Positions 14,195-30,424 of a DNA stretch of 56,469 nt are shown piece after piece; the stretch's first letter is position 1; every line of letters starts with the position of its first letter. Origin of the DNA: Nitrosomonadales bacterium (GTDB taxonomy: Bacteria > Pseudomonadota > Gammaproteobacteria > Burkholderiales > Gallionellaceae); NCBI GenBank assembly GCA_016214695.1, contig JACRNY010000005.1, positions 144,372 to 200,840 on the forward strand, in the 5' to 3' direction. Under the pieces are notes generated by a model. It ran no database searches, had not been told where the DNA came from, and saw nothing but the letters and a program-made list of their open reading frames with translations. The translations under genes and the position numbers were made by a program.

Positions 14195-15027
14195 CACGCG
14201 GCCTTGCCGGCAAGCACGTACACCGTACTGCCGCGCAGCTTGAAGAGGGAGCTGGCGTGATAGAAGCTCTCGGAATGTCCGGCGAACAGCAGGCCGTTAC
14301 TGTGCAACAGGGGCGCGAACTTCTTCAGGATGGAGAATTGCGTCTCCTTGTCGAAGTAGATCATCACATTGCGGCAGAAGATCGCATCCAGCGGGGCATG
14401 GAGCGGCCAGCCGCTCTCCAGCAGATTGATGCGGCGAAAGTCGATCATCTTCTTCAGCTCGGGCTTGACCTGCACGTAGCCGGCATTCGCCCCGCTCTCG
14501 CGTATGAAGAACCTCTCCACCTGCTGCTGCGGCATGCGCGCGACCGCCTCGGCCTTGTACCTGCCTTCACGCGCGGTCTGCAGCACCCTGGTGTCGAGGT
14601 CAGAGGCGATGATGTGGACCGGACGCTCGTAGCCGAGTGTCTCCACCGCGGTCATCGCCATCGAGTAGGCTTCCTCGCCGGTGGAACAGGCCGAACACCA
14701 CAGCGTGATCGTGCGCCCCGCCTCCTGCTTGCGCAGGTGCTCGGCCAGCAGGGGGAAATGGTGCGGCTCGCGGAAGAAGGAAGTGAGATTGGTGGTCAGC
14801 GAGTTGGTGAACGCCTCCCGCTCCGCCACGTCGCCGCGTTGCAGGCGGTCCAGGTATTCGGCGAAGCTGCGGATGCCGGTGGCGCGCAGGCGCCGCGCCA
14901 GGCGGCTGTACACCAGTTCCTGCTTCTGCTCCCCCAGCGAGATCCCCGCGTAATCGTAGATCAGCTTGCGGATGCGCTGGAAATCCTGGGGGGTGAACTG
15001 GAATTCGCGGTTCTGTTCATTGCTCAT
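14194..15027 (-). CDS. cheR: chemotaxis protein methyltransferase CheR
   Basis: CheR methylates receptor glutamates using S-adenosylmethionine for adaptation. The 277-residue protein has the N-terminal helical domain ([28 protein letters not shown]) and the SAM-binding catalytic domain with [34 protein letters not shown] and [14 protein letters not shown]. Its ATG overlaps the preceding receptor stop (ATGA), and its stop overlaps cheB. Length and motifs are normal. Confidence 0.95.
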
Positions 15028-16163
15028 GCCGCCATTTTACTTGGAGAATGGCGGAGCAAACCATTATCCGCCTCGCCGGCAACAGCCATGCGCTCCAGCG
15101 CACTCAGCACGTCCATGCTGTCCGCCTCCATCCTGGCGACCAGTTCCATGCCGTGCAGTGCATCTCCGCCGCGCAGCGCCGCCACCGCATCCTTGCCGTG
15201 TTTGTGGAAGGAGCTGTGCGGACTCTCGATGGCGGCATAGCCGTCCAGCCTGGAGAAACGTTCCTTGCCTTCGCCCTCGTAATACCACTTGCCCAGACGG
15301 CAATCGGAATGCGAGGAGAAACTCTCGGCCGCACGGTCCGAGATACCCATGAACACCTTGTAGATCTCGAACTTGTAAAGGATATGGTCGATCTTGGCGA
15401 CCTCGACGAAGCTGCGCAACGCCGCTGCCGAGATCGTACCCTCCATGCTGTGCGAGAGGTCGAGCAGGTGTTTCATGTTCTCCATCACGTTGCCGACATC
15501 GTGGCTGAACGCCCGCGACTTGTCTGCCCAGCCGTGCATCTGGATCTGGGTGCGTTCGGTCTCGCCCTGGATGGCCGTGACGATGGTGGATATCTCGCTG
15601 GTCGCCTTGGCGGTGCGCTCGGCAAGCTTGCGCACCTCGTCCGCCACCACCGCAAAACCGCGTCCCTGCTCGCCGGCGCGCGCCGCCTCGATCGCCGCAT
15701 TGAGCGCGAGCAGATTGGTCTGGTCGGCGATCTCCTTGATGAGCTGGACGATGCTGCCGATCTGCGCGGCGCGCTCGGTCAGGTTCTGCACATTCTGCGA
15801 AGTATTCAGGGTATCGCCGGAAAGGGCGTCCAGGCTGGCGGCGATCTTCATCACCGCCTCGCGGTTCCTGACCGAAACGCCGGCCGCCTCCGTCGCCTTT
15901 TCCTGCTGCTGGCGCAGCAGATTCGCCGCTTCGGCCTGCGACTGTTGCAGCGCCACGAAGGAGACGCCGAAATTCTGCATGTTGCCGTAGATCTTTTCCG
16001 TCACCTGCGTGGCGTCGCGGGCTCCGCTCAGCTCGGCACGCAATCCATCGCGCTCCGCTTCGAGTCGCGCCAGTCCTTCCCTGGTCCGGTCGATCTCCTG
16101 TTCGGTTTCGGCCAGCTTGCGTTGCAACGACTGGTGATCCTGCTTCAACTTTCCGCAGAACAT
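15024..16163 (-). CDS. soluble chemoreceptor with C-terminal CZB zinc-binding domain
   Basis: This 379-residue methyl-accepting protein has no membrane segment. Residues about 1-60 are a charged coiled coil. The signalling hairpin ([38 protein letters not shown]) lies near residues 140-180. The C-terminus has the chemoreceptor zinc-binding pattern: a His in [12 protein letters not shown], then [17 protein letters not shown], then [11 protein letters not shown], giving the expected His/Cys/His/His ligands. CZB receptors such as TlpD and McpA sense zinc or oxidants such as hypochlorous acid in other bacteria. Strong GAGGAGG lies upstream. It sits between cheA and cheR. The ligand here is inferred only. 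Confidence 0.88.
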
Positions 16164-16227: not shown

Positions 16228-18105
16228 CTAGTGCCCGCTGCGGACGTCGCTGAGCAATTCTTTTATATCGAGGATTAGCACGATATCGCCCTCGCTGGAC
16301 ATGGTGACGCCGGCCACCCCTTTCGGGCGGAAGGTATCAAGCGATTTGATCACCACATCCTCGTGCCCGACGAAACCGTCGGCCGTCAGGATGAAACTGT
16401 TGCTGCCGAACTGCATGAGCACGCCGACTTCGGAATTCTCGTTGCTGCCCCAGCCGATCAGCTGCGCCAGCGGCAGCACCGGCAATACTTCGCCGCGCAC
16501 CACCATGGTCGCCTTGCCGGAGACCTTCTGCAGTTCCTGTTCCGTGACCGGCAATATCTCGCGCACCATGGACAACGGCACGGCGAAGGACTGGTCGGCC
16601 AGGCGCAGCACCAGCACCGGCAGGATCGCCAGCGTGAGCGGCAACGAGATGGAGAAGGTCGAGCCCTTGCCCACTTCGGAATGGATACTGACCGTGCCGT
16701 TCAGCTTCTGGATGTTGGTCTTCACCACATCCATGCCGACACCGCGGCCGGACACGCTGGAGATCTCGTCCTTGGTCGAGAATCCCGGCAACAGGATGAG
16801 CTCCAGGCAGCGCGCCTCATCCAGTGTATTGGCCATCTCGGCGGTGATCAGACCTTTCTCGACCGCCTTGTTGCGGATCACTTCGGGGCGCATGCCCTTG
16901 CCGTCATCGGTGATGGTGATGAGGATATGGTCGCCTTCCTGGCGCGCGGAGAGTTCCACGATGCTCTTCTCCGGCTTGCCGGCGGCAAGACGCTCCTCGG
17001 GCGTTTCCACACCGTGGTCGACCGCGTTGCGCACCAGGTGCACCAGCGGGTCGTTCAGGTCCTCGATCATGGTCTTGTCCATCTCGGTCTCTTCCCCGGA
17101 CAGCACCAGTTCGACATCCTTGCCGAGCGAGCGCGCCAGGTCGCGCGCCAGACGCGGGTATTTCTTGAACAGGCGCCCGATCGGCTGCATGCGCGTCTTC
17201 ATCACCGCGTTCTGCAGGTTCACCACCAGCATGTCGAGCTGGCTGACCGACTGGTCCAGCTCGCGCAGGGTGTCGGCATCGTTGCGCCCCTGCAGGATGT
17301 CGGAACGCAGATGGGTAAGACGGTTCTTGGTCAGGCCGATCTCGCCGGACAGGTTAAGCACCTGGTCCAGACGGTCGGTGTCGACGCGGATCGTGGTCTC
17401 TTTCGCTTCCGTCGTGGGCACATCGCCGGCGCGCCGGCCGACGGTCGTTCCCGGCACATCGGTGGAACGGCGACCGAAGGCCTTGCGGGTGGATTCTTCC
17501 TCGTTGATCGCAGCGGTGATCTTGGTCTCGTCGCGCGTCGCGCCGACCTCCTTGACGATATCTCCGCCGGTGATCACGTTGTAGAGCGCATCCCAGTCCA
17601 CATTGTCCGCGCCTGCCGGTGCCGTGGCCGGCGCTGCAACTGCCGGTGCTGCAACGGGAGCCGGTGCCGCCGCGGCCGGTTTCGCCGCGCTCTTCGAGAT
17701 CGCCGCGACCGCCTTGCCGCTCAGCGCATCCTTCAGGGCATTGATCACCTCTGCCGGCGCCGCAGCCGGCTGCAGGCTCTGCTGCAGCGCCCCGAACATA
17801 CCGCGCACTTCGGCCGTGGCCGCAAAGATCACATCCATCAGTTCGGCATTCAGGGTCAATTCGCCGTTGCGCAACTTGTCGAACAGGTTCTCGGTCAGGT
17901 GACACAGGGTCACCAGCTCAGCCGCATTGAGAAAGCCCGCCCCGCCCTTGATGGTGTGGAATCCGCGGAAAATCTCGTTCAGCAGACCGCTGTCGGAAGG
18001 GTTCTTTTCCAGCTCCATCAACTTGCTGTCCACATCGGAAAGCATGTCCCCGGCTTCCATCAGGAAGTCCTGCAGCAATTCTTCCATTCCTACGAAATCG
18101 TTCAT
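16228..18105 (-). CDS. cheA: chemotaxis histidine kinase CheA
   Basis: CheA phosphorylates CheY in response to receptor state. The 625-residue protein starts with the P1 domain carrying the phospho-accepting His in FHTIKGGAGFLNA (near residue 50). An Ala/Pro-rich linker (about 135-170) stands where P2 would be. The P3 dimerisation region follows (DRLDQVLNLSGEIGLTKNRL). The P4 ATPase domain has NAVDHGVE, DDGKGM and GRGVGMDVV. The C-terminal P5 CheW-like domain ends IKELLSDVRSGH. An AGGAGACGAAC ribosome site precedes the start. No clear P2 CheY-docking domain was recognised. Confidence 0.95.
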   Translation of the reverse strand: MNDFVGMEELLQDFLMEAGDMLSDVDSKLMELEKNPSDSGLLNEIFRGFHTIKGGAGFLNAAELVTLCHLTENLFDKLRNGELTLNAELMDVIFAATAEVRGMFGALQQSLQPAAAPAEVINALKDALSGKAVAAISKSAAKPAAAAPAPVAAPAVAAPATAPAGADNVDWDALYNVITGGDIVKEVGATRDETKITAAINEEESTRKAFGRRSTDVPGTTVGRRAGDVPTTEAKETTIRVDTDRLDQVLNLSGEIGLTKNRLTHLRSDILQGRNDADTLRELDQSVSQLDMLVVNLQNAVMKTRMQPIGRLFKKYPRLARDLARSLGKDVELVLSGEETEMDKTMIEDLNDPLVHLVRNAVDHGVETPEERLAAGKPEKSIVELSARQEGDHILITITDDGKGMRPEVIRNKAVEKGLITAEMANTLDEARCLELILLPGFSTKDEISSVSGRGVGMDVVKTNIQKLNGTVSIHSEVGKGSTFSISLPLTLAILPVLVLRLADQSFAVPLSMVREILPVTEQELQKVSGKATMVVRGEVLPVLPLAQLIGWGSNENSEVGVLMQFGSNSFILTADGFVGHEDVVIKSLDTFRPKGVAGVTMSSEGDIVLILDIKELLSDVRSGH

Positions 18106-18155
18106 GTTCGTCTCCTGACTGCACCCATCATGCCGATCGATGATGGTCTCTTGAT

Positions 18156-18893
18156 TTAGAACCCCAGGCTTTCCAGCAGGTCATCCACCTGATCCTGGCT
18201 GGTCACCACATCCGAACGCCCCTTGGCGTTGATGACCGGGCCGTTGAGTTGTCCGGCGTTCAGTTCCGCCTTCACCGAAGCGGGGGCGTTCTCGATCAGC
18301 AAGGACAGCAACTGCTGCTCCATGTTCTGCGTCACCTCGATGATCTTCTTGATGACCTGTCCGGTCAGATCCTGGAAGTCCTGGGCCATCATGATCTCGG
18401 TCAGTTGCGCATTGGTCGCCTTGGCCTGCCCGGGCGTTTCGTGCAGGAAGGCATGGGTCTGGGTGACCAGGTCCCTGAACTGCTGCACATCGAGCTTCTT
18501 TTCGAACAGCAGATCCCACTGCTTGGCCAGATGCTGCGACTGGCTGCCCAGCTTTTCGACCACAGGCTGGGCCGCCTCGGTGGCATTCAGCACGCGCTCT
18601 GCAGCCTGCTGCGTCAGGGTCGCCACATAGTTCAGGCGGTCGCGCGCGTCCGGGATGGTCGCCGCAGCCTTCTCGATCTCCTTGTGCAGCCCGAGCTCGC
18701 GCAAAGTATCGTGCAGTACGCGCGCCATGTGGCCGATCTGGTTGATGACCTTGGTTGGATCGCCTTCGGCAGCTGCCGCCGCCGACGCGGCAGCGGTCGC
18801 CGGCGCTTTGGCTTCGTCGTTGTTGGCCGCGATGATGCTGTCGAACAGCGCTTCGAGATCGTCGGAATCCTGTGTTGCAGTATTGGTAGCCAT
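18156..18893 (-). CDS. cheZ: CheY-P phosphatase CheZ
   Basis: CheZ dephosphorylates CheY-P. The start at 18893 has GAGG six bases upstream; an in-frame GTG four codons earlier overlaps the cheY stop and is less likely. The 245-residue helical protein has the active-site segment MMAQDFQDLTGQVIKKI, with the Asp and catalytic Gln of D-x-x-D-L-T-G-Q. It ends with DQVDDLLESLGF, the CheY-binding tail. An Ala-rich stretch follows the N-terminal DDLEALFDSIIA. It lies directly downstream of cheY. Confidence 0.92.
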   Translation of the reverse strand: MATNTATQDSDDLEALFDSIIAANNDEAKAPATAAASAAAAAEGDPTKVINQIGHMARVLHDTLRELGLHKEIEKAAATIPDARDRLNYVATLTQQAAERVLNATEAAQPVVEKLGSQSQHLAKQWDLLFEKKLDVQQFRDLVTQTHAFLHETPGQAKATNAQLTEIMMAQDFQDLTGQVIKKIIEVTQNMEQQLLSLLIENAPASVKAELNAGQLNGPVINAKGRSDVVTSQDQVDDLLESLGF

Positions 18894-18901
18894 GGCCAGC
18901 C

Positions 18902-19300
18902 TCACTTGTTTAGCTGCGGGAATGCCGCAAATATCTTCTTCAGCTTCTCGTCCAGCGTGGCGGCCGTGAACGGTTTGACCACGTAACCGGAAGCGCCTGC
19001 TTGTGCCGCCTCGATGATGTTCTCCTTCTTCGCTTCCGCCGTCACCATCAATACCGGCAGATGCTTGAGAGCGGCGTCGGCGCGGATGTTGCGCAGCAAC
19101 TCAATGCCGGTCATGTTGGGCATGTTCCAGTCCGACACCACGAAGTCGAATTTCTCGCCGCGCAGCTTGTTGAGCGCATCCACGCCGTCCTCGGCTTCCT
19201 GCACGTTGGCGAACCCGAGTTCTTTCAGGAGATTCCGCACGATGCGCCGCATCGTGGAGAAATCGTCCACCACCAGGAATTTCGTATCTTCTATGCCCAT
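18902..19300 (-). CDS. cheY: chemotaxis response regulator CheY
   Basis: CheY-P binds the flagellar switch. The single-domain receiver of 132 residues has the acidic pair in [13 protein letters not shown], the phospho-acceptor Asp in [13 protein letters not shown], Thr in [13 protein letters not shown], the switch aromatic in ASGYVVKPF, and Lys in VKPF. This is the canonical CheY pattern, including the DFSTMRRI helix 1 that binds FliM and CheZ. The ATG at 19300 follows GGAGAAAGTG. It is followed by cheZ and cheA. The 99 bases upstream show no clear sigma-28 site. Confidence 0.95.
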
Positions 19301-19399
19301 CACTTTCTCCTAAGATTCATTTACAGTCGCAAGTCCGTGTCGGTGCCGAAAGCACCCGCGTCCGCCATTTTCAACCACCGACTCGCGACTCACAACTGT

Positions 19400-20347
19400 T
19401 TATGTCAACAACGGTCGCAGGGTCGTCGACAGCACCATCGAATCGAACTTGGGCACGTAGTAATCCACCCCGACGCGCTTGCCCATGGCACGGTTCGCAT
19501 CCGAAGACAGCGAAGAATGCATCACCACCGGGATGTTATCGAAGCGATGGTCGCTCTTGATGTTCTGGGTCAGCACATAACCGTCCATCTCCGGCATCTC
19601 GGCATCGGTCAGAATGACCTGGATCTGGTCGTGCAGATTGATGCCGGCGCTCTGCGCGGCATCCGCCATCGCCTTCAGGCGTTCCCAGCCTTCGCGGCCG
19701 TTGTTCGCCTGGATATGCTTGACCCCCATCTTGTCGAGCACTTCGACGATCTTGCGGCGGGCGACCAGCGAATCGTCGGCGAAGAACACGCACAGCTCGT
19801 GCTCCGACTCCACGCGTTCGACGTTGCCGACCACCCCTTCGCCGAAGGCATCGGCCAGGATCTGCTCGACATCGAGGATGGACACCAGCGCGCCGTCATC
19901 CAGCTCGGTGATGGCGGTGATGAGCGCCGCCTTGTCGGACAGCATGCCTTCGGTGGGGCGCACCTTGTCCCAGTCGACGCGGATGATGCGATCCACACCT
20001 TCGACCAGGAATCCCAGGATATGGCGGTTGAACTCGGCGACCAGCATGGTCGTGTGCGCGACATCGCTCCTCATGCCCATGAACTTGGCCAGGTTCAGCA
20101 CCGGCATCACATGCCCGCGCAGACTCACGATGCCGTCCACGCCGCCCGGCATGTTCGGCGTGCGGGTGATCTTGCTGATCTGGCAGACCTCCTTGACCTT
20201 GAACACGTTGATGCCGAACTTCTCGTTGCCGCCCAGGTTGAACAGCAGGATCTCCATCTTGTTGGTTCCCGCCAGATTGGTGCGCGCATCGATCTGGTCC
20301 ATCAATCCGTCGTGCCCCGAACTCAACATGTCTTCTGCGTAAGTCAT
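19400..20347 (-). CDS. cheV: CheV coupling protein (CheW domain plus receiver), downstream copy
   Basis: CheV couples receptors to CheA and can be phosphorylated. This 315-residue protein has a CheW-like domain (residues about 15-165, KMEILLFNLGGNEKFGINVFKVKEV, GGVDGIVSLRGHVMPVLNL) and a receiver domain (about 185-310) with FFADDSLVARRKI, the phospho-acceptor Asp in VILTDAEMPEMDGY and MHSSLSS, and VPKFDS near the end. ATG at 20347 has GAGGAGAGAAAG directly upstream; a GTG six codons earlier is weaker. It begins 14 bases after the upstream cheV stop. Confidence 0.9.
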   Translation of the reverse strand: MTYAEDMLSSGHDGLMDQIDARTNLAGTNKMEILLFNLGGNEKFGINVFKVKEVCQISKITRTPNMPGGVDGIVSLRGHVMPVLNLAKFMGMRSDVAHTTMLVAEFNRHILGFLVEGVDRIIRVDWDKVRPTEGMLSDKAALITAITELDDGALVSILDVEQILADAFGEGVVGNVERVESEHELCVFFADDSLVARRKIVEVLDKMGVKHIQANNGREGWERLKAMADAAQSAGINLHDQIQVILTDAEMPEMDGYVLTQNIKSDHRFDNIPVVMHSSLSSDANRAMGKRVGVDYYVPKFDSMVLSTTLRPLLT

Positions 20348-20361
20348 CTTTCTCTCCTCGA

Positions 20362-21303
20362 TCACGCCAACAGCCGTGTCAGCGTCTGCGCCAGCTTCTG
20401 CGGCTCGAATTTCGGCACATATTCATCCACCCCCACGGTCTTGCCGAGTTGCTGGTTGGACGAACTGGACAACGACGAATGCATCAGCACGGGGATGCCG
20501 GAGAAACGCTTGTCCGCCTTGATCTTGCGCGTGAGCATGTACCCGTCCATCTCCGGCATCTCCACGTCGGTGAGGATCACCTGCACCAGGTCCTTCATCG
20601 GCGTATGCGAAGCGTCGGCGTAGTCGGCCATCTTCGACAGTTCGATCCAGGCCTGGCGACCGTTGATGGCGGCGATGGATTTGACCCCCATCGCATCCAG
20701 CGTGCGCTGGATCTGGTGCCGCGCCACCGAGGAATCGTCGGCGAAGAACACTGTGCGTTCCTTGCCCAGCGGCTTCACGTTCTTGAAGATCATGTCGTCG
20801 GTGTCGAAGCGGCTGGTCTCGGACAGCACCTTCTCCACATCCATCATCATCACCAGACGCCCGTCCTTCAGCTCGGTGATGGCCGTGACCAGACCGCCCA
20901 GCTCGGCCACCAGCATGGCGGGCGGCACGCGCATCGCCGACCAGTCCAGGCGCAGGATGTTGTCCACCGCCTTGACCAGGAAACCCTGCGTATGCCCGTT
21001 GTACTCGGTGACGATCATGATGTCGGACTTCTCGTCGGTCTGGATGCCGGCATATTTCGCCAGATCGATCACCGGCACCAGGGCTCCGCGCAGGCTCACC
21101 ATGCCCTCCACCGCTTCCGGCATCTCCGGCGCGCGCGTGATCGGCGGGATGCGCATCACTTCGCGCACCTTGAACACGTTGATGCCGAAGGTCTCCTCGC
21201 GCCCGGTGCGCTTGTCCAGCCCGAGCGTGAACATCAGGATCTCCAGCTTGTTGGTGCCGGCCAGCTTGGTGCGGGCATCGATATTCTTCAACAGTTCAGA
21301 CAT
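20362..21303 (-). CDS. cheV: CheV coupling protein (CheW domain plus receiver), upstream copy
   Basis: This 313-residue paralogue of the next gene has the same layout. The CheW-like domain (LEILMFTLGLDKRTGREETFGINVFKVREVM, VEGMVSLRGALVPVIDLAKY) contains a small insertion, DKRTGREE, not found in the downstream copy. The receiver domain has FFADDSSVARHQI, VILTDVEMPEMDGYML and LMHSSLSSSSNQQLG. ATG at 21303 follows GAAGGAGAATGAA; longer readings to 21369 extend into untranslated sequence. Two tandem CheV proteins and no separate CheW are visible, so these may carry the coupling role. Confidence 0.9.
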   Translation of the reverse strand: MSELLKNIDARTKLAGTNKLEILMFTLGLDKRTGREETFGINVFKVREVMRIPPITRAPEMPEAVEGMVSLRGALVPVIDLAKYAGIQTDEKSDIMIVTEYNGHTQGFLVKAVDNILRLDWSAMRVPPAMLVAELGGLVTAITELKDGRLVMMMDVEKVLSETSRFDTDDMIFKNVKPLGKERTVFFADDSSVARHQIQRTLDAMGVKSIAAINGRQAWIELSKMADYADASHTPMKDLVQVILTDVEMPEMDGYMLTRKIKADKRFSGIPVLMHSSLSSSSNQQLGKTVGVDEYVPKFEPQKLAQTLTRLLA

Positions 21304-21352
21304 TTCATTCTCCTTCGGGCGATCCCTGCGGATACCATCGCCCCTGTTTGCA

Positions 21353-23431
21353 TCATTTACCCATGGCACATTTGGTCAGCGGATAACCGGCCTTGCTCAG
21401 TTCATCGGCAGATTTCGCCAATTCTTCTGTCGCTGACTTGGCATCCTGTGCCGAATGTGTGTTGCTATCCACCAGTCCGGTGATCTGCTCCAGGCTCTGC
21501 GCCACGCTCTCACCCGCCGCGGACTGCTCCTTCGACGCCACCGCGATATGGTCGATGCGTTCCGACACCAGCACGGTGGCGTTCATTATCTGCTTCAGTC
21601 CCTCGCCGTTCTTGCGGATCAGGGTGATGCCGCCTTCGACCTCGGTCACCGCTCCCTGCATCGATCTTACCGCCGCATCGGAGATTGAATTGATCTCGGC
21701 GATGGTCTTGGCGATATCCTTGGTGCTGGTCGCCGTACGTTCGGCCAGCTTGCGCACCTCGTCCGCCACCACGGCGAATCCGCGCCCCTGCTCGCCCGCC
21801 CGCGCCGCCTCGATGGCGGCATTGAGCGCCAGCAGATTGGTCTGCTCGGCAATCTCCTTGATGGCATTGGCGATCACGCCGATACGCTGGATGGACTCGC
21901 CCAGATCGGTGATGGTCTTGCTGGAAGACTGCACTGTGGTGGCCACTTTGCCGGTCGCCACGATGCTGAGTTCCATGTTGCGATTGTTCTCATCGACGAT
22001 CTGCTTCATGGCCTGCGCTTCCTTGAGCGAATCGGCGGCCATGTTCGCCACTTCCGCGACGGACTGGCTGAACTGCTCCATGGTCGCGGCGATCTGCTGG
22101 ATATGGTCCTGCTCGGTCAGGGCATTGTTTGCCACCACGCTCACCTTCGCATCCACGTCGCCGATACTTTCCTGCATCTGCTTCACCGGCGTGACGATCT
22201 CGTCCACCATGGTGCGCAGATAGGATTGCATGGTCTGGATCTCGCACAGCAACGATCCCATCTCGTCATGGATCGAGATATCAAGTTCGCCATCCAGATT
22301 GCCTTCCATGATGTTGCGGAATTCCCGGTCGACGGCGTTTGCCGGCACCCGCACATAGCGTTTGACGCTGAAGCCGATGAAGAAGAACAGGAAGATATGC
22401 AAGGCGACCTGCCCCACTATGGTCTGCATCTCCATATGGTTGATGCGATCGTAGTCGGGTTGCAGATTGATCACCACGTCCGACGCGCCCAGCACCGTGC
22501 CTTCTTCAGCCTGGTGACAGACCGTGCAGTCGGTACCGTGGAAATCCTTGCTCGCCTTGTACGGGGTGATCACCCGCAACAGCTGGTTGCCCTGCGCATC
22601 CTTGGAGTAGCTCACATTCACCTGCTTGCTCTCTATCGCGCGGCGCTGGGCATCGTCCTTGACCTGCTCTTCCGGCAGTCCCGCGCCGTACAGGTCGATG
22701 ACCGGCTTGGCGCGAACGATCTGCGCAGATCTGACGTTCACTCCCGAACTGACCTTGTGGATGAGCAGCTTGCGGTTGCTCGCCTCGCCGATCTGTCCCG
22801 TCACCATCAGCATGTTGGCGCTGTCGATGATCTCGTTGGCGATCTGCGCGCCTTTCTCTTCCGCCAGGGTCTTCGATTCCTCGCGCAGATTGGCGGAGAC
22901 GAACACCTGCGCCGCACTCAGCACGATCACCAGCGAAGCCTGGATCATGAACTGCAGCTTGGAGATCAGCGTCCAGTTCTTGAACTTGTACGGCTCGAAT
23001 CTCGAAACGACCTGCCTGCCGGTCTGGTTCAGCTCGCGATACAGCGCCTCCGCCTCCGCCACCTGCTCGCGCGTGGGAGCACGCCGCACCGAGACGTAGC
23101 CGATGATGCCGCCGTTCTCGATGATGGGCGCCACGGTGGCGCGCACCCAGTAATGGTCGCCGTTCTTGCTGCGGTTCTTCACCATGCCGCGCCAAGGCCG
23201 CTCCGATTTCAGCGTATCCCAGAGCCACTTGAACGCCTGCGGCGGCATATCGGGGTGGCGCACGATGTTGTGATTCTGGCCGATCAGCTCCTCGCGGGTG
23301 TAACCGGATATCGCCACGAAGGCCTCGTTCGCATAGGTGATGACACCCTTGGTATCGGTCTTGGAAACCAGCACCGCCCCTGCCGGGAAAGGCACCTCCT
23401 TTTGCGATACATATGCGTTCTTGTTCTGCAT
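21353..23431 (-). CDS. chemoreceptor with Aer-type PAS and periplasmic c-heme (CxxCH) domain
   Basis: This 692-residue receptor is an unusual combination. Residues 18-125 form a PAS domain almost identical in pattern to the FAD-binding PAS of Aer: [37 protein letters not shown] membrane segment (about 158-179) follows, then an external domain to about 340 containing [16 protein letters not shown] (Cys302, Cys305, His306; bases 22514-22528), a c-type heme attachment motif. A second membrane segment (about 341-358), a HAMP-like region and a full signalling domain with the [20 protein letters not shown] hairpin complete it. AAGGAGAGAACC precedes the ATG. The cytoplasmic flavin and periplasmic heme readings are inferred from motifs. 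Confidence 0.88.
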
Positions 23432-25130: not shown

Positions 25131-26762
25131 TTATGCTTTGAATCTGGCGACTGCGTTCTGCAGCTCCACACCCATGTGTTCCAGTTCGGTTATGTCGTGC
25201 GCCGTCTGTTCGATGGCGGCATGGTTTTTTTCCGCCATCCTGGCGATCTGCTCGATGTTGCGCGTGATCTCGTTGCTGGCCCCGCCCTGTTCGGCGACCG
25301 ACTCGACGATCTGCCCGACGCCGACGTTCGACTCTTTCACGGCCGCGCCGGCTTCTTTCAACACGGCCGACATCAATTCGACATGCTTGTGCGTCGTTTG
25401 CAGGGACTGCACGCCGGAAGCGATGGACTGCTCCACCCGTGCGGACTTCTCGTCCAGCTTGCTGGTGACCTTGTCGATCTCGCTGGCCGACTGGGCGGAC
25501 TTCTCCGCCAGTTTGCGCACCTCGTCCGCCACCACCGCAAAACCGCGCCCCTGCTCGCCGGCGCGTGCCGCTTCGATCGCGGCGTTCAATGCCAGCAGAT
25601 TGGTCTGGTCGGCGATATCCTTCACCTGCCGCGTCATGTTGGCAATGGTGCGGGCGCTTTCCACGAACTCGTTGGCGGACATGGCGATCTGCTCCACCGC
25701 CCCCTCGATGCTCTGGATCTCGCGCACCATCTCGGCCACACTGCGGTTGCCCCGCTCGGTCTGCTGCAGGCTCTTCTCCGACAGGTCGCGCACCACGGTG
25801 GTGTTTTCGGCCACCGAGTTGATGCTGACCGTGACTGCTCCGACCGCGGACGCGGTGGAAGCGACCGCCTCGTTCTGCGCACGCGAACTGCTCGCCACTT
25901 CCGCAGAAGTCGCGGCGATATGACTGGTGGTCTTGTTGATCTGGTCCACCCCCCCCAGCACCTGACGGATGATGGAGCCGAAATTATCGATCAACGCATT
26001 GAATGCCACGGCCGTTTGCCCGACTTCATCCTTGCTGCGTACTGCCACGCGGCGCGTCAGGTCGCCATCTGCCTGCATCGCCAGCATGGTCTGCTGCAAC
26101 TCGCGCGTGGGACGCGTCACCTGGTTGATGAGCCAGCCGATGACAAAGAACAGCAGGACCTGTATCGTGATCTGCCCGCCCCAGAGGATCGCACTGGCCT
26201 GGCTCATCGCCTTGTACTCGTCGCTGATATCCAGACTGACACTGACTGCCCCGACCACCACTCCGTCTTCGGTGACATGGCACTGCAAACAATTGGTGCC
26301 GGTACCGCGAAAATCCTTCGCCGCCGCCACAGGCTCGACCACGCGCAGGATGCGCTTGCCGTCCCTCTCGAAGAACTCGCTCTGCTGCTTGCCGGTACTC
26401 AACGCGGCACGGTCCAGATCGTCCCTGCTCTGCTCTTCGGCTGCCCCGGCGCCGAACTGCGCCTCCACCGCCTTGCCGCGTATGATGCGCAACTCTTCCG
26501 CCTTGCTGGATACCGCCATCTTCTTGATGAACAGTTTGCGCTGCTCCGCATCCGAGATGCTGCCGTTCAGCATCATCATGTTCAAGCCGTTGAATGCGCC
26601 GTCCGCCGGGATCACCGCGCGGTTCTTGGCATCTTCCAGGACCCGCATCTCGTAGCGGTCGAATGCCCAGCGCTGCGCGAACACCAGCACCACCAGCAGT
26701 ATCAGCTGGATGGGTATCTGCAACTTGTTCTTGATAGATAAACCGCTCCACCATTCGCTCAT
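25131..26762 (-). CDS. chemoreceptor with periplasmic c-heme (CxxCH) domain, copy 2
   Basis: This 543-residue receptor has a membrane segment at about residues 14-30 ([17 protein letters not shown]) and an external domain with [18 protein letters not shown] (Cys158, Cys161, His162; bases 26277-26291). A second segment near 193-210 ([17 protein letters not shown]), HAMP and the signalling hairpin follow. The ATG at 26762 has AGGTGG upstream; a GTG three codons earlier is possible. Its external domain aligns along its whole length with that of the next gene ([28 protein letters not shown]), showing a recent family expansion. The heme reading rests on the motif. Confidence 0.88.
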
Positions 26763-26792
26763 CTCAACCACCTTTAATAGGTTCGCCAGCCG

Positions 26793-28418
26793 TCACACCT
26801 TGAACCGGCCCACGGTCTGGTTCAGGTTCTCCGACAAGGCCTCCATCGATTCCACCGCAACGACGGTGCGCTTGACCACATCGTTGCTGCTGCTCGCCAT
26901 CACCGCGATCTGCTCGACGTTGCGCGCGATATCCTGGCTGGCATCGCGCTGCTTGTTGATGGATTCGGAGATGCTCTCCAGTCCGCGGTTCACGCTATCC
27001 ACCGAGGCGTTCGCCTCGACCAGCACGGCGGTCACTTCACGGATATGTTCCTGGCTGCTTTGCAACGCCCCCATGCCGCGCTGCACGGTCTTTTCGACCT
27101 GGCCAGACTGCGCCCCCAGCGACTTGGTGACTTCGTCGATCTGGGTCGCCGATTGCGCGGACTTCTCCGCCAGCTTGCGCACCTCGTCCGCCACCACGGC
27201 GAAACCGCGCCCCTGTTCGCCCGCGCGTGCCGCCTCGATCGCCGCATTCAGCGCCAGCAGATTGGTCTGCTCGGCGATGTCGCGCACCTGCTGCGTCATG
27301 TTGGTGATGCTCTGCGTGTTGTTGACGAACTCGCCGACCGCCGTGGCGATCTCGCGCACCGAGCTCTCCACCCGCTCCAGCTCCTGCATCATCTCCTGCA
27401 GACTCTGCTGTCCGCGGTTGGCGCGCTCCAGACTCTCGTTCGACAGTTTGGAGACATGATCGGTGCCTTCCGCGACTTGCGCGATGCTGGCGCTGACCTG
27501 CTCGACCGCCCTGGATGTGGAAGCCGCCGTATCGCTCTGTTGCTGCGCGCTCTGCGCCAGCTGCTGGGCATCCTGTGCCAGCGAATGCGCCGCGCTGGCC
27601 ACCTGATGGGCATGCCCATCCACCTGCCTGACGATGCTCTGGAAACTGTCAGTCAGCTCGTTGAACGACTTGGCGGTCTGGCCGATCTCATCCTCGCTGC
27701 GCACCACGACGCGCTTCGACAGATCCCCGTCCTTTTGCATGGTCTGCATGGCCGACTGCAGTTCGCGGGTCGGGTTGGTGACGAAACCGATCAGCCAGCC
27801 GATGCCGAAATACAGGAATATCTGGACGGCTATCTGGGCCGCCCACAGCGCCATGTTCGCCCGGTCCATCACGTCATATTCTTCTGTTATATCCACCGTG
27901 ATGCTTGCGGCGCCGTTCACCGTGCCTTCCGGCACGGTATGGCACATCAGACAGTTGGTACCGCGGAAGTCGCTCTTCGCGATGAACGGAACGACCACGC
28001 GCAAGGTGTGCTTGCCGCCTTGCTCCTGCAGCCTGGTCTGCTCTTTCGCGGAAGACAGGGTTTCCCTGTCCATCTCGTCCTTCACCTGCTCGGACGGCAA
28101 ACCGGGACCGAACTGGTCCTGCACCGGCTTGTTGCGAATGACGCGCAGTTCCAGCACGCGGTCGGAAGCACCCATCTTGTCGACGTAAAGCTTGCGCTGG
28201 TCGCTGTCGCTGATGATGCCGTTCAGCATCAGCATGTTCAGGCCGTTCAACACGCCATCGGCGGAGACCACGGCCTTCTGCCGCGCCTCTTCCAGTACGC
28301 GCTCTTCGAATTTGTCCAACGCCGTGCGTTGCGCCATGACCATGATGACCAGCAGGATGAGCTGGATCGGTATCTGCAACTTGTTTTTCAGCGAAAGCCT
28401 GCTCCACCAGTTATTCAT
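26793..28418 (-). CDS. chemoreceptor with periplasmic c-heme (CxxCH) domain, copy 3
   Basis: This 541-residue receptor is a close paralogue of the 25131-26762 gene. Membrane segments lie at residues about 14-30 and 190-208. The external domain carries [17 protein letters not shown] (Cys156, Cys159, His160; bases 27939-27953). HAMP ([26 protein letters not shown]) and a signalling domain with [20 protein letters not shown] follow. It is the first receptor after motB and has a sigma-28-like promoter directly upstream. The conserved block D-F-R-G-T-x-C-L-x-C-H-x-x-x-x-G is shared by all three heme-type receptors. Confidence 0.88.
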
Positions 28419-28476: not shown

Positions 28477-28503
28477 TTAGCGGCAAGCCGCTGCGAACCT
28501 TTA
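28477..28503 (-). promoter_or_regulatory. sigma-28-like promoter before the chemoreceptor cluster
   Basis: The minus strand reads TAAAGGTT, 11 bases, GCCGCTAA, two mismatches from the sigma-28 consensus with exact spacing. The -35 element overlaps the motB stop codon. It ends about 59 bases before the first receptor ATG. The same bases include AGCGGC-AA-GCCGCT, a small palindrome that might alternatively act as a motAB 3' hairpin. Expected regulation of receptors by FliA favours the promoter reading. Confidence 0.6.
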
Positions 28504-29535
28504 ATGCCCCGTTGCCGCCGCCCCCGAGTGGGCGGCCCCCTCCGCCTGCATCGCCACGGCCGCTTCCGGCGCAGATGCCGTCACGGCAACGCCGGACCCT
28601 GCATCCAGTTGCGCCTCTTCCAGCGGATCGCCGGTCTCTGCATCGATATCGACGCTGCCGCCATCTTTCTGCGCCGCCTCTTCAGCCCGCTTGTTCATGA
28701 CGATGATGCTGATGCGGCGGTTGATCGGATTGAGCGGTTGCGTCTTGTCGAACAGCACCGCCGACGACAGGCCGACCACGCGCACGATCTTCTCCTCCAC
28801 CAGACCGCCCCGGATCAGTTCGCGCCGCGACGCATTGGCGCGGTCCGCGGACAGCTCCCAGTTACTGTATTTCCGGTCCGCCGTCACGTAGGGCTGCGCG
28901 TCGGTATGACCGGACAGGCTCACCTTGTTCGGCATCTCGTTCAGCATCTTGCCGATCTCGCGCAGGATATCCTTGGTATACGGCTCCAGGTCGGAGCTGC
29001 CGCTCTGGAACATGGGGCGGTTCTTTTCATCCACGATCTGTACGCGCAACCCTTCCGAGGTGAGGTCGAGCAATATCTGGTTTTTGAACTTCTTCAGCTT
29101 GGGATCGTTGTCGATCACCTGCTCGATGTTGAATTTCAGCTCCTTCAGCTTTTCCAGCTCCTTGATGCGCTCCAGGCGCAGGAACTCCTCCCGCGCCGCT
29201 TTCAGGTTGATGACCTTCGCTTCCGGCGGCAACTCGCCCGCCTTGACCTGACCTTCGCTGCGCGTGAGATCCTGCCCGCCGCCCTTGATGATGCTGGAGC
29301 TGTCGCCGCTGCCGGTGCCCCCCATCAATGCCACCTTGAGCGGCGTCTTGAAATATTCCGAGATCCCTTGCAAATCGCCTTTGGCGGTCGAGCCCAGCAA
29401 CCACATCAGCAGGAAGAACGCCATCATCGCCGTGACGAAGTCGGCATAGGCAATCTTCCAGGCGCCGCCATGGTGGCCGCCGGCCACCTTCTTGATGCGC
29501 TTGATGACGATGGGTCTTTTGTCTTCTTTCGTCAT
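28501..29535 (-). CDS. motB: flagellar stator protein MotB
   Basis: This 344-residue stator anchor has a basic, His-containing N-terminus ([17 protein letters not shown]), one membrane segment near residues 27-47 ([22 protein letters not shown]) with the proton-binding Asp, and an extended plug and linker. The OmpA-like peptidoglycan-binding domain has [26 protein letters not shown] and NRRISIIVM. The last 60 residues are Ala-rich and acidic and probably disordered. It follows motA by 34 bases. It differs clearly from MotD at 5521-6297, so the cell encodes two stators. Confidence 0.95.
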
Positions 29536-29569
29536 GACTCGGTTCTATGGGCTCTGTGTGTGATGACGA

Positions 29570-30424
29570 TCAGCGTTTCTGCTTGACGTGTTCTTCCAGT
29601 TCGGCAAAGCCCGGACGGTCGGTCGAGTTCAGCACCTTGCGCCCGAATTCCACCGCCATCGCGGGGGCGTAGCCGTTCAGATTGGCCAGCAGCACGACCT
29701 TGATGGCCTGGAACATCTTGCCGCTCTCCTCGGCCTTCTGCTCCAGCAAGCCGGCGAGGGGGCCGACGAAACCGTAAGCCAGCAGGATGCCGAGGAAGGT
29801 ACCCACCAGCGCGTGCGCGATCAGGATGCCCAGCTCGGCGGGCGGGATGCCTACCGATTCCATGGTGTGCACCACGCCCATCACCGCGGCAACGATACCG
29901 AATGCAGGCATACCGTCGCCCACCTTGGCAATCACATGCGAGGAGACCATCGCTTCATGGTGATGCGTCTCGATCTCGACGTCCATCAGGTTCTCGATCT
30001 CCATGGCATTGAGGTTGCCGCTGACCATGATGCGCAGGTAGTCGGTCATGAATTCGACCACATGGTGGTCGGCCAGTATCTTGGGATATTTCGCGAATAC
30101 GGGACTCTCGTGCGGGTTCTCGACATCACCCTCGATGGACATCAGGCCTTCCTTGCGCACTTTGCCGAGCAACTCGTACATCAGCGCCATCAGTTCCATG
30201 TACGTCTCTTTGTTGTATTTGGAGCCTTTGAGTACGGTAGGCAGATCCTTGAGGGTGGCCTTGATCGCCTTGCCATTGTTACCGACGAAAAAGGCGCCCC
30301 CCGCTCCGCCGCCGATCATCAGCAGCTCAAGCGGTTGCCACAGTGCGCCCAGATGCCCGCCGGCCATGGCAAAGCCGCCGAACACTGAGCCCAGAACCAC
30401 GATATATCCAATGATCACCAACAT
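29570..30424 (-). CDS. motA: flagellar stator protein MotA
   Basis: This 284-residue proton-channel subunit begins MLVIIGYIVVLGSVFGGFAMAGGHL and has four membrane segments. The conserved blocks DGMPAFGIVAAVMGVVHTMES and GTFLGILLAYGFVGPLAGLLEQ lie in the last pair. It has the long cytoplasmic loop (KGSKYNKETYMELMALMYELLGKVRKEG) typical of enterobacterial-type MotA. It lies downstream of flhC across a 188-base gap that includes a hairpin terminator-like structure. Confidence 0.95.
   Translation of the reverse strand: MLVIIGYIVVLGSVFGGFAMAGGHLGALWQPLELLMIGGGAGGAFFVGNNGKAIKATLKDLPTVLKGSKYNKETYMELMALMYELLGKVRKEGLMSIEGDVENPHESPVFAKYPKILADHHVVEFMTDYLRIMVSGNLNAMEIENLMDVEIETHHHEAMVSSHVIAKVGDGMPAFGIVAAVMGVVHTMESVGIPPAELGILIAHALVGTFLGILLAYGFVGPLAGLLEQKAEESGKMFQAIKVVLLANLNGYAPAMAVEFGRKVLNSTDRPGFAELEEHVKQKR

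Follow-up and report, generated by a model that had tools for sequence, protein, structure and literature searches.

The window (the whole stretch of DNA that was analysed, 56,469 nucleotides from a Nitrosomonadales bacterium of the family Gallionellaceae) carries a set of chemotaxis and motility genes on one strand. These encode MotA, MotB, four methyl-accepting chemotaxis proteins (MCPs) with transmembrane segments, two CheW-receiver proteins, a cheY-like ORF, CheZ, CheA, an MCP with a CZB domain, CheR, and CheB. The receptor considered here fits the MCPs by its signalling domain, which matches PF00015 above the cut-off. The features of the receptor and of its surroundings are as follows:

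21353..23431, minus strand: receptor gene, 692 amino acids plus stop, with PAS, first transmembrane segment (TM1), putative external heme domain, second transmembrane segment (TM2), HAMP-like segment and MCP domain (ORF, Pfam, hydropathy)
23018..23422, minus strand: Aer-type PAS, residues 4-138, predicted FAD site (match to Aer structures, contact residues)
22895..22951, minus strand: TM1, residues about 161-179 (hydropathy)
22427..22891, minus strand: external domain, residues about 181-335, Cache-like fold (model mca7f09152e06, pLDDT 90.6; profiles)
22805..22807, minus strand: Met209, candidate sixth heme ligand (invariant in 63/63; faces Met60 of GSU0582 via L136)
22514..22528, minus strand: CTVCH, residues 302-306, predicted c-heme attachment (motif, conservation)
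22364..22420, minus strand: TM2, residues about 338-356 (hydropathy)
22196..22357, minus strand: HAMP-like segment, residues about 359-412 (conserved P363, G377, D389 and E390)
21473..21940, minus strand: MCP signalling domain, residues 498-653 (PF00015, 150.6 bits, cut-off 34.6)
25131..26771, minus strand: MCP with the receptor's external domain, CLQCH at 161, without PAS, upstream of the receptor (Pfam, motif, alignment A2)
26793..28418, minus strand: MCP with the receptor's external domain, CLMCH at 156, without PAS, upstream of the receptor (Pfam, motif, alignment A2)
28501..30424, minus strand: motB and motA (Pfam)
16228..21369, minus strand: two CheW-receiver genes, cheY-like ORF, cheZ and cheA (ORFs, Pfam)
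20362-21369 and 19400-20365, minus strand: the CheW-receiver genes (Pfam)
18902-19303, minus strand: the cheY-like ORF (by reading only)
15024-16163, minus strand: MCP carrying a zinc-binding CZB domain, next to cheR and cheB (domain search)

An AAGGAG sequence lies shortly 5′ of the receptor ATG. The first-pass annotation had described a single protein with an Aer-type PAS, two membrane segments and CTVCH at residues 302-306 between them, and this description holds: Aer-signature stretches start at residues 53 (11 residues) and 79 (20 residues), hydrophobic peaks fall at 161-179 and 338-356, and the CTVCH motif starts at residue 302. A domain-database search for PAS and heme domain together bore this out in part, with Pfam matches for PAS (PAS_3, 1.5e-17) and MCPsignal (5.1e-44) and none for the external domain. 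The segment after the last transmembrane helix has HAMP-like conserved residues, but Pfam HAMP was unreported there at E 0.01. Within this cytoplasmic segment, Cys396 (window 22244-22246) is identical in 63/63 homologues, and the C-terminus of the protein (window 21356-21391) is conserved as AGYPLTKC in most of 16 orthologues. The model of the full-length receptor is poor (pLDDT 66.6), and from it the PAS cannot be placed relative to the HAMP-like part.

The che genes at 16228..21369 are likely the output path of the receptor. Among the 47 receptor loci with full flanks, both CheW-receiver genes, cheY and cheZ stand beside the receptor in 27, motA and motB are found in 25, and cheA in 23; the count of neighbouring heme MCPs (47/47) was left unused, as its matches are the receptor's own domain. 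Elsewhere in the same genome (L032:1840-3807, minus strand), the heme domain of the receptor, with CMLCH at 252, occurs on a HAMP-PAS-GGDEF protein of 656 residues.

The N-terminal PAS, to which an Aer signature had been ascribed at first reading, is confirmed as Aer-type by its matches to Aer structures and by its FAD-contact residues. Residues 4-138 match full-length Aer (31cj) at 2.1e-43 and residues 10-135 match the Aer PAS (8dik) at 5.7e-43. The substitutions described as stabilising the Aer PAS, S28G, A65V and A99V (PMC9668731, available sections), land on receptor residues 29, 66 and 100, and therefore the receptor numbering is that of Aer plus one. Five of the six mapped FAD contacts given in the available text of that paper are identical in the receptor, the exception being M69, which is Leu; the residue called 'T27' there could not be mapped and is outside the six. 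Across 63 homologues, the equivalents of Aer H53, R57, W70 and N85 are identical in all, and that of R115 in 62. The M69 position is Leu and position 28 is Gly in 62 of the 63, while the position of H92, an N-cap contact, is variable (50 His, 12 Tyr, 1 Phe). This conservation supports an Aer-type PAS with retained FAD contacts, for which FAD binding is predicted.

The external domain is modelled as a long helix, a helix, a strand, two helices, two strands, a short helix at the CxxCH, a strand and a long helix. This order equals the one given for sCache_heme in the available text of PMC12889525, with the CxxCH between strands 3 and 4. In a set of 63 aligned homologues C302, C305 and H306 are identical throughout and both intervening positions vary; in alignment A2, which has 32 rows, two of them being one window MCP entered twice, 15 columns are invariant, those of the CxxCH and Met209 included. 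Direct searches gave little. The receptor's own external sequence had no match to the Pfam heme families even at E 1, and against PDB sequences it gave chance rows only, both alone (best 0.11) and as a profile (best 0.64). Among the matches listed by Foldseek for the domain model, the best were Cache sensor domains: the three at E ≤ 0.001 were all WalK/YycG, followed by CitA and DcuS; the heme-sensor entries 3B47, 3B42 and 5B82 were absent from the best 50 rows. A Foldseek comparison with viral proteins was uninformative for the receptor.

Profiles were more telling. PF21563 matches 8 of the 32 A2 rows (best 2e-5) and PF11845 matches 7 (best 0.0027), the receptor's row being in neither group. 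With hhalign, which drew on 9/17 loci of one collection and 30/30 of another, the external-domain profile aligned with nine proteins found by PF21563 at 96.4% (E 1.4e-9) and with two PF11845 sets at 71% and 51%, over parts only; control PAS and MCP profiles gave 0.2%. From the Pfam rows and hhalign, PF11845 was dropped as the exact family of the domain in favour of the side of GSU0582 and PF21563. At a neighbouring MCP of the window PF11845 scores 11.7 bits against a cut-off of 24.1. The same genome has two PF11845 matches above that cut-off, at G000:C3:238783-239199 (a frame of 195 residues) and G000:C2:353730-354218 (841 residues).

The connection with GSU0582 of Geobacter sulfurreducens passes through L136. 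This MCP comes from a different family within the class, and the external-domain HMM matches it at 1.4e-23. L136 reaches 26.9 bits with PF21563 (cut-off 27; 30 bits in the genome scan) and E 0.0088 with 3B47, the structure of GSU0582, with the CxxCH in register. This last score is weak in itself, and the link is carried by the register and by the invariant methionine. Since His109 of the 3B47 chain is His143, chain Met26 is Met60, and in the alignment Met60 faces the L136 methionine that aligns with Met209 of the receptor. Through this intermediate the receptor domain is distantly related to the c-heme sensor of Geobacter, and sequence, profiles and the fold model support its kinship with c-heme sensors in general. 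A covalent heme c at C302/C305 with Met209 as a ligand is predicted from the conserved residues. In GSU0582, Met60 is described as ligating the reduced heme and as leaving it upon oxidation or binding of NO or CO (PMC8396549, available sections).

Each module has known counterparts. E. coli Aer (31cj, 8dik; PMC9668731, in the text available) shares the N-terminal PAS with FAD contacts, a membrane segment, a HAMP-like part and the MCP domain. It has neither a large external domain nor a heme, whereas the receptor has about 155 external residues with a CxxCH between its transmembrane segments, and for this reason it is not filed as Aer. GSU0582 and GSU0935 (3B47, 3B42; PMC8396549) are likewise MCPs with a periplasmic Cache/PAS-like domain, a CxxCH near the domain end and, by alignment, a Met ligand at the place equivalent to Met209, but their sequences are only remotely similar and the available sections describe no Aer-type PAS for them. 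The sCache_heme, or DUF3365-Tll0287, proteins, as presented in the accessible part of PMC12889525, share a single Cache module, a CxxCH between strands 3 and 4 and fusion to MCPs; unlike them, the receptor is missed by PF11845, and that paper mentions no fusion with an Aer-type PAS ('Aer' occurs 0 times). DcrA of Desulfovibrio vulgaris also joins a periplasmic c-heme domain and a cytoplasmic PAS in one MCP, although its PAS is described, in the part of PMC8396549 available, as lacking heme and is proposed to have an output role; it is by this description that DcrA is set apart.

One published record is a table row. In Table 1 of the Gallionellaceae pangenome (2023; PMC10734462, in the part available), cluster 40, 'MCP with Pas/Pac sensor; Aerotaxis receptor', has one CxxCH and is present in 43 of 87 iron oxidizers, with no accompanying discussion. 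Judged from the row, this cluster is probably the receptor described here. The genes Slit_0546, Galf_0774, Galf_1969 and Galf_2093 are named aer in the available text of PMC3770913, the only paper returned by a literature search for these locus tags. No fusion of an FAD PAS with a c-heme domain appears in the accessible parts of PMC13401364 (a review of aerotaxis), PMC3831638, PMC4643136 and PMC2577667, and the literature searched, which lacked most subscription papers, yielded no work on a receptor that has the two cofactors together. The first-pass annotation had allowed for a combination already common and characterised; it is indeed frequent in Gallionellaceae and probably tabulated (PMC10734462, in part), and no characterisation was found. 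Each module is known singly.

The distribution of the receptor appears narrow. In the genus group of the window, PAS-bearing copies occur in 13 of 19 genomes, with one further copy cut by a contig end. PAS, heme domain and MCP are found together in 60 of 70 named loci, a figure which is not a frequency because these loci were chosen by patterns from PAS-bearing orthologues, and many of them are the same organisms as entries of the genome set. The remainder comprises three cut loci with all three parts, one with a cut PAS and the domain, three with domain and MCP and no whole in-frame PAS (L037, L056, L100), two GGDEF proteins, and one broken frame (L081; intact copies exist elsewhere). A locus is called whole when its frame does not run off it; L047 ends early, at 556 residues, and the frame of L037 starts inside the PAS. 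The titles of 55 of the 70 name Sideroxydans, Sideroxyarcus, Gallionella, Ferrigenium, Gallionellaceae, Gallionellales or Nitrosomonadales (6 only the last), and those of the other 15 give only a broader group.

At the class level the heme domain occurs in 58 of 369 genomes, and the PAS is present in just one of 30 loci fetched, that of the window itself; a search of these 369 with the full alignment gave a full-length match in the window's genome only (at most three candidates scored per genome). At the phylum level an Aer-type PAS occurs in 186 of 398 genomes. Thirty of these loci were fetched; the two from the genus group have a CxxCH and the 28 from outside it have none. The earlier statement that Aer lacks a large periplasmic domain is true of Aer itself, but such a domain behind an Aer-type PAS is not rare: in 6 of the 28 outside loci the gap between transmembrane segments is 161-169 residues (L228 is excluded from the count, its gap of 267 being due to a hydrophobic segment of the MCP region). 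The same genome also encodes, at L031:3350-5461 (plus strand), a receptor of 703 residues with Aer-type PAS, 4HB/TarH external domain, HAMP and MCP and no CxxCH, and the Aer-type PAS has therefore been placed before different external domains. A quick tree, which omitted L037, L056, L064, L081, L085, L087 and L088 of the 70 and took 3 of the 16 PAS loci of alignment A1, put the 63 PAS-bearing rows together with the PAS-less L100 inside, a pattern of two changes; the union of PAS and heme domain may be a single fusion. Given its conservation in relatives and its absence from the outside loci fetched, the receptor joins two known modules in a fusion that is conserved and apparently restricted to this lineage.

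Domain order, conservation, predicted fold and genomic setting were obtained directly for the receptor, and upon them a working model may be built. A flavin sensor inside and a heme sensor outside appear to lie in one protein, which may therefore steer swimming by both sides of the membrane. The cytoplasmic PAS would carry FAD and report how reduced the respiratory chain is; the Cache-fold domain would hold one c-type heme, attached through C302/C305. H306 would be one of the heme ligands and Met209 the other, switchable one, as described for GSU0582/GSU0935. In both models the helix that includes TM1 carries Met209 close to its outer end; the inner end of TM1 leads to the PAS, and the strand that follows the CxxCH runs on to TM2. 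A bond between Met209 and the iron would in this way couple both transmembrane helices by way of the heme, and its making or loss may shift them against each other. Both inputs would act on one HAMP-like/MCP output feeding the neighbouring che genes. That the receptor is such a two-input energy and redox sensor, with redox as the main signal of the heme, is given about an even chance.

The heme could instead sense nitric oxide, the receptor then combining FAD-based energy taxis with NO sensing, which is possible though on the unlikely side. The genome encodes a protein of the cytochrome cd1 family, about 581 residues long, which may make periplasmic NO; the family also includes other members. 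Redox and NO sensing are indistinguishable from sequence. One sCache_heme protein, membrane-bound and linked to a HAMP, behaves as an NO sensor, with tight binding of NO and no stable binding of O2 (PMC12889525, available portion), but it is not a close relative of the receptor; GSU0582 and GSU0935 bind NO in both redox states, but ligation in these same domains also shifts with the redox state alone (PMC8396549, in part). Only one input might work, if the PAS has a structural or assembly role and does not signal redox state, or if the heme domain only binds ligand or is vestigial. The PAS of DcrA, described without heme and possibly part of the output (PMC8396549, same sections), offers a precedent; the residues for both cofactors are kept in 62-63 of 63 rows, which makes a single working input improbable. 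That the CxxCH arose by chance or binds something other than heme, as the lack of a curated heme family matching the domain might suggest, is highly improbable given its occurrence in 2 of 20,000 shuffles of the protein, its invariance, its position in the fold, the profile link to heme sensors and the CcmF encoded in the genome.

Within the two-input reading, a more specific and rather doubtful proposal is that the receptor is a transmembrane redox comparator which positions iron oxidizers, with the FAD PAS and the heme Met209 at opposite ends of a continuous TM1. Flavin state and heme ligation would act on, and could bias, this same helix. The first-pass annotation had likewise suggested, if both cofactors bind, a comparison of electron-transport state inside with redox state outside. 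Iron oxidizers draw electrons from outside into the inner respiratory chain, and the receptor would hold the cell where outer supply matches inner demand.

The tracking of the Fe(II)/O2 zone by iron oxidizers has been little tested, and chemotaxis assays were lacking for ES-1 and ES-2 in 2013 (PMC3770913, available text). The receptor is conserved in bacteria inhabiting narrow Fe(II)/O2 gradients, and it supplies a gene and residues for testing. If the two-input reading is true, one receptor would unite FAD in the cytoplasm with c-heme in the periplasm, both of them redox inputs already known in chemotaxis.
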